A DNA stretch of 64,000 nt from Phyllobacterium chamaecytisi. Lineage in GTDB: Bacteria; Pseudomonadota; Alphaproteobacteria; Rhizobiales; Rhizobiaceae. The position numbers and the translations under genes were made by a program. Of the stretch, positions 33,080 through 51,469 are shown piece after piece (the first letter of the stretch is position 1; the number at the start of each line of letters is the position of its first letter). A model generated the notes under the pieces. That model had not been told where the DNA came from. It was given only the letters and a program-made list of their open reading frames with translations, and searched no databases. The stretch covers positions 62,001 through 126,000 of the forward strand of contig NZ_JAIQWW010000010.1 of NCBI RefSeq assembly GCF_020164455.1, written 5' to 3'.

Positions 33080-33101
33080 GCAATACTTGCGCGAAGCTGA
33101 C
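33080..33101 (-). promoter_or_regulatory. Tandem 11-bp repeat, candidate FtcR site of the flgE operon
   Basis: On the gene strand the two 11-mers are GTCAGCTTCGC and GCAAGTATTGC. They match the repeats before fliF, flgB, DUF1217 and motA. The site ends 44 bp upstream of the flgE ATG. An 11-bp direct-repeat spacing is usual for OmpR/PhoB-family regulators, and FtcR is one. Binding is inference. Confidence 0.55.
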
Positions 33102-33171
33102 GTTCAGATGGTGTCACCGGGGAATACTTGAATTTCGACTTGACCGCCGATGGCGGCCAAAATCTGGCAAG

Positions 33172-33843
33172 TTAGTCCAGATTGATGCAGTAGCCGAGAA
33201 AGCGCTTGGAATCGATCGGATCATAACCAAGTTGCTCACGCAGCTTCTTGCGAAGCTTGCTGATATGACTCTCAACGACACTTTCCTCGACATCGCTGTC
33301 GAAAATGCCGTAGATCGCGCTGAATATCTGCGCCTTGTTCAGCCGGCGTCCGCGGTTGGCGATCAAATATTCAAGTATGCGCCGTTCCCGCCGCGGCAGG
33401 GAAAAATCAAGCCCGTTGACCTGCGGATCGCGGCCGTCAGAAAATACCCGGATCGGACCGACCTGCGTTCCCGCATCGCCATTGCCATAGCGGCGGCGAA
33501 TGGCATTGATTCGCGCCAGTATCTCTCGCACATGCATCGGCTTGCGAACCACATCGTCGACACCCGCCTGAAAAAGTTCCAGCGTATGTTCCAATGACTG
33601 CGTTTCATTGACAGCGATGACCGGCGCTGAACAGCGCTCGCGAATTTTTTGTGGAAACTGGCTGCGATTGACACATTCTCCTATGAGAAATGCCTCGACC
33701 GCCATAATGTCGTTCTTCTGAACGGTGGCGACCCAATCGCCGAAATCGTCCGGAGTAAAACCTGTTGTTGTTATGCCCTCCCGGGCGAACCACGCCGAAT
33801 ACCCACTCGTCACCAGACTTCGTTCGTCGACGACTACAATCAC
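33172..33843 (-). CDS. ftcR: FtcR (Rem-like), OmpR-family flagellar master regulator
   Basis: A 223-residue regulator with a degenerate receiver domain and an OmpR-type winged helix. It resembles Brucella FtcR throughout: the N-terminal VVVDERSLV, VDDVVRKPMHVREILARINA, and FSLPRRERRILEYLIANRGR, ending in DPIDSKRFLGYC. FtcR activates the early flagellar operons in Brucella, as Rem does in Sinorhizobium. The acid-pocket Asp of a normal receiver is replaced, so phosphorylation-independent control is likely. The start is a GTG at 33843 behind GGAAGG; the open frame runs 15 codons further without likeness. It is a single-gene unit between the flgE and fliF operons. Confidence 0.93.
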   Translation of the reverse strand: MIVVVDERSLVTSGYSAWFAREGITTTGFTPDDFGDWVATVQKNDIMAVEAFLIGECVNRSQFPQKIRERCSAPVIAVNETQSLEHTLELFQAGVDDVVRKPMHVREILARINAIRRRYGNGDAGTQVGPIRVFSDGRDPQVNGLDFSLPRRERRILEYLIANRGRRLNKAQIFSAIYGIFDSDVEESVVESHISKLRKKLREQLGYDPIDSKRFLGYCINLD

Positions 33844-34082
33844 TGCCCCACCTTCCGAATCATTTATTTTGCCCCAAGCAACACACAACTAGCGGGGTCG
33901 ATGACTCGGCGACAATTCCCAATATATTGTACCTAATTTATTGGGAGACCTAAATAATTCGGATTAGATGCATTCTCGGGGAAGCTGGCAGGTCCGGCGC
34001 GGGCAGGATCATTACCAATTTAAACTTTACAAAATATGACCGCGAAGACAAATTCACGTTTTATTACCAAGTATTAACACAA
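33844..34082. promoter_or_regulatory. ftcR upstream region with an inverted repeat
   Basis: These 239 AT-rich bases separate ftcR from the end of the fliF operon. TCCCAATA (33917-33924) and TATTGGGA (33939-33946) form a perfect 8-bp inverted repeat with a 14-base spacer, about 75-105 bp upstream of the GTG. It is a candidate operator for whatever controls ftcR. VjbR, encoded in this window, is one candidate by analogy with Brucella. The tandem 11-bp repeat seen at other flagellar operons is absent here. Confidence 0.5.
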
Positions 34083-34673
34083 TCACTTATCGCAAAACAT
34101 TCGCGCCTTTGGCGTCCAGTTGCCGAAGCCGGTAGCCACCATATTTTCAATTACCCGGCAAACATATTGCTTCTGGGCCGGGTCATTGTTGGGTCCCGCG
34201 TGATAGCGCGCAACCGCCATGGTCCAACCGCCTTCGCGTGCTCTGAGCTCTTTTAGAAATCGCGCGGCGTAGTCGACATTAGCGGCAGGGTTTAACATTG
34301 CCTCTACAGACGGGAACTTGCTGGCGTGAAAATAGTGATTGATCTGCATGCATCCGATGTCGATGAGCTTTGCTCCGCGCGCATGCGCCTCGTTGAATTT
34401 GGCCATGGCAGCTGCTGCTGACGGCATAAAAACCGCTTTGCCTTCTATATTCATTGCATAGGGCTGGAGCGAGTCCTTGTGCCCCGTTTCAGTCAAACCT
34501 ACCGCGTAGAGAATGCCGATAGGAATATCGTACTTCGTCGACGCACGGTGCATTTGCTGCTCGCAGAGGTTTTCCGCCGAGGCAGGCTGCAACGCGAGAA
34601 ACAGGCTAAACAACCAACCCGCGTGAACGGCCATACCCAATATCCGGCTCGGTTGCCTTTTCCACACGCGCAT
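34083..34673 (-). CDS. Flagellar-operon lytic transglycosylase (SLT domain)
   Basis: A 196-residue exported protein. A signal peptide (GWLFSLFLALQPASA) precedes a single SLT domain with the catalytic Glu in AVGLTETGHKDSLQPYAMNI, the block DIGCMQINHYFH and VARYHAGPNND. It would open peptidoglycan for the rod. The FlgJ-like protein of this island lacks a muramidase domain, so this enzyme probably plays the role that SltF has in Rhodobacter. Its gene starts 68 bases inside the 3' end of fliK in another frame, and it is last in the fliF operon. Confidence 0.85.
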   Translation of the reverse strand: MRVWKRQPSRILGMAVHAGWLFSLFLALQPASAENLCEQQMHRASTKYDIPIGILYAVGLTETGHKDSLQPYAMNIEGKAVFMPSAAAAMAKFNEAHARGAKLIDIGCMQINHYFHASKFPSVEAMLNPAANVDYAARFLKELRAREGGWTMAVARYHAGPNNDPAQKQYVCRVIENMVATGFGNWTPKARMFCDK

Positions 34674-50564: not shown

Positions 50565-51346
50565 CAACGACCACCCAGCTTGAAGGACTGCAGGGTCGCA
50601 AGAATGCTTGCCGATATCCCGATCGTAGAGGTTCCTCCGAGCAGCAAGGATGGTGCGCTCGCAGCGGTGGAAGGATTTTTCATCTCATACATGGCAGTGA
50701 ACCGCGTTAACAGCTTGTTGAGTTTGGCGGGGTCCTTGAGATCCTTGAGATTAAGTTTGTCCTCGACCAGTTCGGCCTGTCGGTCGATGTCGAGATTGGA
50801 CATCTGTGCGGGCATGTTGAAGGTTGCCTGGAAGACCTGCAGCAGCGCCTTGTCACCAAGTATCTCGAAAGCATTGGTAATGGTTGGCGCCTTGCGGGCG
50901 AAATACAGCGCCAGCCGCACGCCTTCATTCTGCTGGCCCGTTTCGACCTCCAGGGTCTGGCGCACATATTTGTCGACGATGGGCTGCTTCACCTGAGGTT
51001 GGGCAGTTGTCTTGTCGCCAAGCTTGACAAAATTGAACGTCGTCGCGAGTTCCTTGTAACGGGGGTCCGTAAGCTTGTTGGCGAAACTGTCGGGATTGTC
51101 GATGCCTTCGGTGAGTACCTTGCGGATGAAGGCTTTGGCATAGGCCATATCCTCAAGCCCGAACGCCTTCAATGCATAATTGTACAGCTTCGTGTCTTTC
51201 ATGAAATCGTCGATGGATTTCACATTGCCTATATTTTTCAGATAATAATCGCTCTCGCGTTGAACGATCGGCTCCTTGGAGACGCGGGCGAGCGAACGCG
51301 GCAAGTCGGCGGCAATCAGCCTATAGCCCGTCATCGTATTGATCAT
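50564..51346 (-). CDS. DUF1217 flagellar-cluster protein
   Basis: A 260-residue, largely helical protein of the DUF1217 family, which occurs in alphaproteobacterial flagellar clusters. Typical segments are YYLKNIGNVKSIDDFMKDTK, LYNYALKAFGLEDMAYAKAF and DPRYKELATTFNFVKLGD. It has no signal peptide or membrane segment. Its biochemical role is unknown. Cotranscription with flgF and fliI suggests a part in rod export or assembly. It is divergent from motA and first in its operon. Confidence 0.85.
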   Translation of the reverse strand: MINTMTGYRLIAADLPRSLARVSKEPIVQRESDYYLKNIGNVKSIDDFMKDTKLYNYALKAFGLEDMAYAKAFIRKVLTEGIDNPDSFANKLTDPRYKELATTFNFVKLGDKTTAQPQVKQPIVDKYVRQTLEVETGQQNEGVRLALYFARKAPTITNAFEILGDKALLQVFQATFNMPAQMSNLDIDRQAELVEDKLNLKDLKDPAKLNKLLTRFTAMYEMKNPSTAASAPSLLLGGTSTIGISASILATLQSFKLGGR

Positions 51347-51386
51347 GATGCGCCTTTCCTGAAAACGTTTGGCTCATGTTTGTCAA

Positions 51387-51408
51387 ATCAAGCTTGCCTG
51401 AAGCTGGC
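51387..51408 (-). promoter_or_regulatory. Tandem 11-bp repeat, candidate FtcR site of the DUF1217 operon
   Basis: On the gene strand the 11-mers are GCCAGCTTCAG and GCAAGCTTGAT. The site begins 41 bp upstream of the DUF1217 ATG. It shares the 161-bp divergent region with the motA site. Confidence 0.5.
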
Positions 51409-51447
51409 GGTACTGATCCGCGCGCCACAGGGCGAACGCCCATCGCT

Positions 51448-51469
51448 GCAAGGTTCACGCAAGCCGACG
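51448..51469 (+). promoter_or_regulatory. Tandem 11-bp repeat, candidate FtcR site of the motA operon
   Basis: The 11-mers are GCAAGGTTCAC and GCAAGCCGACG. The site ends 38 bp before the motA TTG start. A perfect inverted repeat GTTAG-CGCT-CTAAC follows at 51472-51485. TCTAACGAT-like text after the repeats also occurs before flgE and may mark the -10 region. Confidence 0.5.

Follow-up and report, generated by a model that had tools for sequence, protein, structure and literature searches.

Two orthologous regulators of the OmpR type are the closest described counterparts of the system considered here: FtcR of Brucella melitensis, and Rem of Sinorhizobium meliloti, Rhizobium and Agrobacterium, where a VisNR-Rem cascade is known. 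B. melitensis FtcR reportedly binds the fliF upstream region and controls both flgE and fliF (PMC9456535, PMC8781033), and Rem reportedly activates class II flagellar genes (PMC6180460). For FtcR, a motif from chromatin immunoprecipitation sequencing (ChIP-seq), TGTGGGCA, has also been published, together with gel shifts of fragments from ftcR and betI (PMC9456535). In this work we analysed a stretch of 64,000 nucleotides from Phyllobacterium chamaecytisi (the window; parent genome 6.36 Mb in 93 contigs), in which an ftcR orthologue lies in a flagellar gene cluster, and found a 22-base-pair (bp) box made of two 11-bp direct repeats before at least seven flagellar genes. Judging from the sequence, it is highly probable that these boxes form the operator for a single flagellar activator, with FtcR (Rem) as the likeliest candidate and two tandem half-sites at the place of the -35 region.

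Two other systems invite comparison. Like the pho box of PhoB, the 22-bp box is a pair of 11-bp direct repeats that covers the -35 region of class II-type promoters. It differs in its sequence and in its distance to the -10 element (4 bp here, about 10 bp for PhoB), and FtcR, unlike PhoB, lacks the aspartate for phosphorylation. CtrA, which acts at class III flagellar promoters, is also a member of the OmpR family. Its motif, TTAA-N7-TTAA, differs from the box. Like FtcR, CtrA is a transcription regulator with a direct action on flagellar genes in Alphaproteobacteria (PMC6180460).

A tandem box before flagellar genes

A first-pass annotation of this DNA had proposed pairs of 11-mers before five flagellar promoters, and all ten 11-mers read as it gave them, in position and strand. 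All five promoters stood, whereas the number did not: the cluster has at least seven, as the boxes before flhA and flgJ had been overlooked. The boxes are as follows.

33080..33101, minus strand, box before flgE: GTCAGCTTCGC GCAAGTATTGC
40602..40623, minus strand, box before fliF: TCTAACTTCGC GCAAGCTTCGC
47821..47842, minus strand, box before flgB: GCAAGTCTCAC GCAAGTTTGAA
51387..51408, minus strand, box before the DUF1217, flgF and fliI genes (a putative operon): GCCAGCTTCAG GCAAGCTTGAT
51448..51469, plus strand, box before motA, in divergent orientation to that of DUF1217: GCAAGGTTCAC GCAAGCCGACG
27683..27704, minus strand, new box before flhA (22.4 bits): GCTGGCCTCGC ACAAGCTTCGG
24358..24379, minus strand, new box before flgJ, the rod-binding gene (20.7 bits): TCAAGCCTCCC GTAAGTTTGGG

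The scores come from a weight matrix built from the aligned sites of the five first promoters across same-genus genomes, with equal weight for each promoter; in full it has 32 positions, covering the 22-bp box, the spacer and a -10-like element. For the alignment, the corresponding 20 kb were taken from 18 Phyllobacterium genomes and the upstream regions aligned, giving 19, 19, 19, 18 and 14 rows per promoter with the window included (the DUF1217 upstream regions of L041 and L054 are truncated by the end of the stretch, and L057 and L058 were left out of this analysis). At all five promoters the 22-bp pair is among the best-kept stretches, alongside the start codon and its approach, and the DNA around it is diverged, with many gaps. 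The end of the box lies 42-44 bp from the start codon for flgE, 34-37 for fliF, 45-49 for flgB, 35-41 for DUF1217 and 38-43 for motA; across the genus the overall range is 34-49 bp.

The box consensus is approximately GCMAGCTTCRC GCAAGCTTSR. When the matrix is compared with itself, the mean column correlation is 0.85 at a lag of 11 and at most 0.14 at the remaining lags from 4 to 14, as expected of two half-sites in direct orientation, spaced by a helical turn of about 11 bp. Within the genus a -10-like element follows constantly 4 bp after the box, mostly beginning with TA (CA at DUF1217 in the window), which would give the box a constant place over the -35 region relative to -10. A box that covers the -35 region and ends near -10 is the class II activator layout of the OmpR/PhoB family, and the 22-bp box is a new instance of this known type of tandem operator. 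The putative -10 elements are:

33070..33075, minus strand, -10-like element of flgE, TAACGA, 4 bp after the box
40592..40597, minus strand, -10-like element of fliF, TATGGT
47811..47816, minus strand, -10-like element of flgB, TAGGTT
51377..51382, minus strand, -10-like element of the DUF1217 gene, CAAACA (CA for TA; the weakest)
51474..51479, plus strand, -10-like element of motA, TAGCGC
27673..27678, minus strand, -10-like element of flhA, TATTGT
24348..24353, minus strand, -10-like element of flgJ, TAGGGT

Specificity in the window and in the genome

With the full matrix the five proposed sites are the top five of the window, scoring 27.6-32.5 bits, and the maximum in 60 simulated 64-kb sequences of third order was 19.4 bits. 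The next matches in the window are the flhA and flgJ boxes, both on the correct strand and at a distance to the gene similar to that of the other five. When each promoter in turn was left out of the matrix and the four training sites were kept in the ranked list, the omitted sites ranked 8 (flgE), 7 (fliF), 5 (flgB), 5 (DUF1217) and 13 (motA) of 127,958 window positions.

Simpler descriptions of the site perform poorly. The single 11-mer GCAAGCTTCGC has nine copies in the genome against ten for a backwards control and is uninformative as a marker by itself; specificity resides in the pair and the spaced -10-like element. A strict 16-letter core pattern gave 15 genome matches (9 for its control), including the five sites first proposed, and was discarded as a search tool; it misses the flhA and flgJ sites. 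A pattern fitting all seven sites matched 53 times and its backwards control 48 times. The pattern alone thus shows no enrichment, and it is the matrix score that separates the seven. The first-pass annotation had suggested a matrix scan of the whole genome and had regarded a motif common outside flagellar promoters as fatal to its proposal. When the 53 matches are scored with the matrix, the seven flagellar sites take ranks 1-6 and 8, and only two outsiders exceed 18 bits, both within open reading frames. One (rank 7, 21.1 bits) lies across the end of a reverse-strand frame of 524 amino acids, with the next listed forward frame (81 amino acids) about 640 bases on, and the other (rank 9, 18.3 bits) is within a frame of 517 amino acids that by eye looks ABC transporter-like. 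As the pattern is strict, weaker sites elsewhere in the genome may have been missed.

Orthologous promoters in other genera

A comparison with the orthologous promoters of Brucella and Sinorhizobium had also been suggested, and the box is present in Brucella/Ochrobactrum, Sinorhizobium and Mesorhizobium. The loci were collected with FtcR proteins as queries, taking the best 80 of 483 relatives with flanks of up to 10 kb, and the sample is therefore skewed to near relatives. The Brucella records among them belong to species other than B. melitensis; most of them we take to be former Ochrobactrum. Genes whose alignment started after residue 30, and those with insufficient upstream DNA, were excluded from the scoring here and in the wider genome comparison below. 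A site was counted from 15 bits upwards.

Sites on the gene strand were found upstream of flgE in 76/79 loci, of fliF in 57/59, of flhA in 50/56 and of flgJ in 37/44; with Phyllobacterium excluded (two loci labelled 'Rhizobiales bacterium', L062 and L065, are counted with this genus), flgE still has a site in 64/67 and fliF in 45/47. Ten loci (L059-L068) overlap with genomes of the training set, and the independent evidence consists of their flhA and flgJ sites and all the other genera. None was found in these loci before ftcR (0/80), flgK (0/79), motB (0/66) or fliP (0/29), nor on the opposite strand of the scored upstream regions, and the best-matching flagellin gene had one in 1/69. Altogether, 258 of 3,167,300 positions in the 80 loci reach 15 bits, against 5 with a reversed matrix and 2, 0, 6, 1 and 0 with five column-permuted matrices. 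At least 220 of the 258 are in the flgE, fliF, flhA and flgJ regions; the remainder was traced in part. The -10-like element keeps its spacing in other genera, with T, A and T at positions 27, 28 and 32 in fractions of 0.80, 0.99 and 0.88.

FlgB and MotA were searched for in 17 genomes, 16 of them outside the genus, and each gene was found in 14. The site upstream of flgB is the top position of its locus in 14/14, and that upstream of motA ranks 1-3 in 14/14, at 12.7-26.0 bits.

FtcR and the box

The candidate for binding the box is encoded next to flgE:

33172..33888, minus strand, ftcR/rem orthologue, OmpR-type regulator with a degenerate receiver; a GTG about 45 bp inside the frame is the probable true start

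The protein falls below the cut-off of every NCBIfam equivalog model shown, and it is named FtcR by orthology and gene neighbourhood: an OmpR-type gene beside flgE and motB-motC-motD, as in the FtcR/Rem group, and a product with 77-81% identity to nine Brucella/Ochrobactrum loci. Among 13 FtcR proteins the helix ESHISKLRKKLR is nearly invariant, with overall identity going down to 52%. The receiver scores 27.5 against a Pfam cut-off of 30.2. Its residue E65 aligns with an aspartate of the solved response regulators 2oqr (regX3) and 1kgs, which we take to be their phospho-acceptor. Ten of the 13 proteins have E at this place, and S, N and Q each occur once, so FtcR lacks the phospho-acceptor aspartate of a response regulator, phosphorylation control is unlikely, and FtcR would rather be controlled by its amount.

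Across the genomes compared, presence of the box accompanies an orthologous ftcR. In five Rhizobiales genomes with a distant ftcR the region upstream of flgE scores 8.4-19.9 bits, and in 15 loci (13 genomes) without an orthologue it scores at most 3.3 bits. For flhA, 2/5 of the distant ftcR-bearing genomes reach 15 bits, against 0/13 scored loci without ftcR, where the best is 11.2 bits at 240 bp (three flhA loci, L169-L171, have no score). A Phyllobacterium genome without ftcR (G014, 88% complete) and a family member (G034) are also without matches to FlhA, FlgE, FlgB and MotA. The idea of an FtcR regulon of class II genes, put forward in the first-pass annotation, thus gains support from the genome scan, the orthologous promoters and the co-occurrence with ftcR, with FtcR as the probable binder. 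The boxed genes also match the targets named for FtcR and Rem, that is flgE, fliF and class II genes, in PMC9456535, PMC8781033 and PMC6180460.

Weighing the alternatives

Several observations speak against FtcR as the common regulator of these boxes, or against a uniform box. The motA site, when held out, reaches only rank 13 in the window; one flgB site in relatives scores just 3.7 bits; flhA lacks a clear site in 3/5 distant ftcR-bearing genomes; and 15 bits is not reached by 2/11 Phyllobacterium flhA and by 5/10 flgJ in the 'other' group. Moreover, genome G051 has an FtcR-like protein (L038, 52% identity) and zero FlhA, FlgE, FlgB and MotA matches. The association between ftcR and the box is confounded by kinship, because flagellar proteins are more diverged where ftcR is missing: the longer FlhA matches have 44-47% identity without an ftcR orthologue and 59-64% with one, and FlgE without an orthologue has 28-36%. 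Finally, the ChIP-seq motif TGTGGGCA reported for FtcR (PMC9456535) differs from the 22-bp box.

That published motif was considered as the operator of these promoters and set aside, as it is nearly absent from them. It occurs upstream of flgE in 0/79, fliF in 0/59, ftcR in 0/80 and flhA in 1/56 of the loci, which do not include B. melitensis itself, and in the window at positions 411, 4960 and 6441 only. The accessible portions of PMC9456535, PMC8781033, PMC8639532, PMC4018554, PMC6180460 and PMC4696191 contain no description of the 22-bp box, the founding FtcR and Rem papers lying outside the reach of this search.

A resemblance selected by eye among chance matches would agree with the single 11-mer being no more frequent in the genome than its backwards control. 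The probability of this is next to negligible in view of the leave-one-out ranks, the simulations, the two additional sites that nobody had predicted and that fall at flagellar promoters, and the retention in other genera, where a lack of the motif would have told against the box and the sites at orthologous promoters far exceed reversed and permuted matrices. It is very unlikely, too, that the repeat is a mere spacer and -35 of mutually similar sigma-70 promoters with no activator. The first half does hold CTTCRC, somewhat like the alphaproteobacterial -35 CTTGAC, but taking it as -35 implies a 15-bp spacer, and both halves are conserved, would-be spacer included, with a repeat at lag 11 and a concentration of sites at flagellar promoters.

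Another flagellar regulator could own the box, such as VisN/VisR, CtrA or a MucR/RosR-type protein, with FtcR acting elsewhere. This we regard as unlikely, since direct repeats of 11 bp are typical sites of OmpR/PhoB-family proteins, whereas an inverted repeat is expected for the LuxR-type VisNR and TTAA-N7-TTAA for CtrA. VisNR, CtrA and MucR/RosR also bear on Rhizobiales motility (PMC4018554, PMC6180460, PMC4696191), but class II genes are placed under Rem, not VisNR, in PMC4018554 and PMC6180460.

The box, its 11-bp period, its strand and its spacing to -10 are conserved, retained across genera and concentrated at flagellar promoters, and we infer FtcR as the binder as well as the transcription starts, the operons and their activation. 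In a model with FtcR, whose gene lies within the same cluster, as the activator, the two 11-bp half-sites would be occupied by two of its DNA-binding domains in head-to-tail arrangement. Given a normally placed start, the box would span about -38 to -17 and end 4 bp ahead of a TANNNT -10 element. As it stands where a -35 would be, FtcR would recruit RNA polymerase in the class II style of PhoB, and at least seven operons for basal body, motor and export would be switched on together.

Flagellin and ftcR promoters

The first-pass annotation saw no copy before flagellin (fliC) or ftcR, and the window scan gave no high-scoring copy there either; in the named Phyllobacterium loci the count is 0/12 for each. 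Its view that flagellin is controlled otherwise holds for Phyllobacterium and fails in two Mesorhizobium loci, which have a strong box some 165-170 bp upstream of a flagellin gene (L081:1327-1358 and L088:1352-1383). L090 and L096 have a similar site at the corresponding place. As the flagellin tally took only the best match per locus, loci with several flagellin genes are under-counted.

Sinorhizobium medicae (L130) has boxes at positions 4412 and 7564, one inside motC (14.9 bits), upstream of motD and rem, and one before a frame ahead of motB; L110, L122 and L137 have sites at the corresponding places, the genes having been checked in L130 only. The site ahead of rem would suit autoregulation. 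In Phyllobacterium, flagellin and ftcR itself would be under other control. An inverted repeat, CCCAAT-N16-ATTGGG, is found at 33918-33945, about 95 bp upstream of the ftcR start; in Phyllobacterium mostly 11 or 12 of its 12 arm bases are kept, and it is partial in Brucella/Ochrobactrum loci. It is a candidate site for a controller of ftcR. The flagellin leader, 41488-41647, has blocks conserved in same-genus genomes and, by eye, small inverted repeats, and is perhaps an RNA control element.

Other features of the cluster

The first genes after the boxes are:

31774..33036, minus strand, flgE (profile match)
38918..40567, minus strand, fliF (start probably 40564)
47393..47773, minus strand, flgB (profile match)
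50564..51346, minus strand, DUF1217 protein gene (profile match)
51508..52389, plus strand, motA (probable TTG start, from conservation)
25559..27649, minus strand, flhA (profile match)
23734..24345, minus strand, flgJ, rod-binding domain (start probably near 24312)

Genes in the window were named by NCBIfam and Pfam profile matches, which identified flgK, flgE, motC, motB, fliF, flagellin, fliP, flgH, flgI, flgG, flgB, fliI, flgF, motA, fliM, flgJ, fliR, flhA, flgD, DUF1217, fliN, fliG and flhB. A TTAA-N6-TTAA sequence at 47799-47812 overlaps the -10-like element of flgB, and several close relatives have TTAA-N7-TTAA there, which is CtrA-like. In the window as a whole the CtrA motif (N7 form only, up to one mismatch) is not enriched, with 5 matches against 6.1 expected. 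In the genome a single Hpt-domain match (PF01627) was found, in a 182-amino-acid frame, and no CheA-like kinase in that one search; this is perhaps a flagellated cell without classical chemotaxis.

Implications

A broader proposal, for which we see even chances, is that the 22-bp box is the true and so far unrecognised FtcR/Rem operator across Rhizobiales. FtcR would then be a phosphorylation-free regulator whose amount alone sets the class II regulon, TGTGGGCA would describe something else, and gain or loss of a box would move single genes, as for flagellin in Mesorhizobium and for the motC site ahead of motD and rem in Sinorhizobium. The disagreement between the box and the published ChIP-seq motif makes the question directly testable. 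The box supplies a rule, at the level of sequence, for the flagellar regulon in a large group of soil, symbiotic and animal-associated bacteria, so that its members, gains and losses may be read from genomes. It also suggests that the activator has given up control by phosphorylation.

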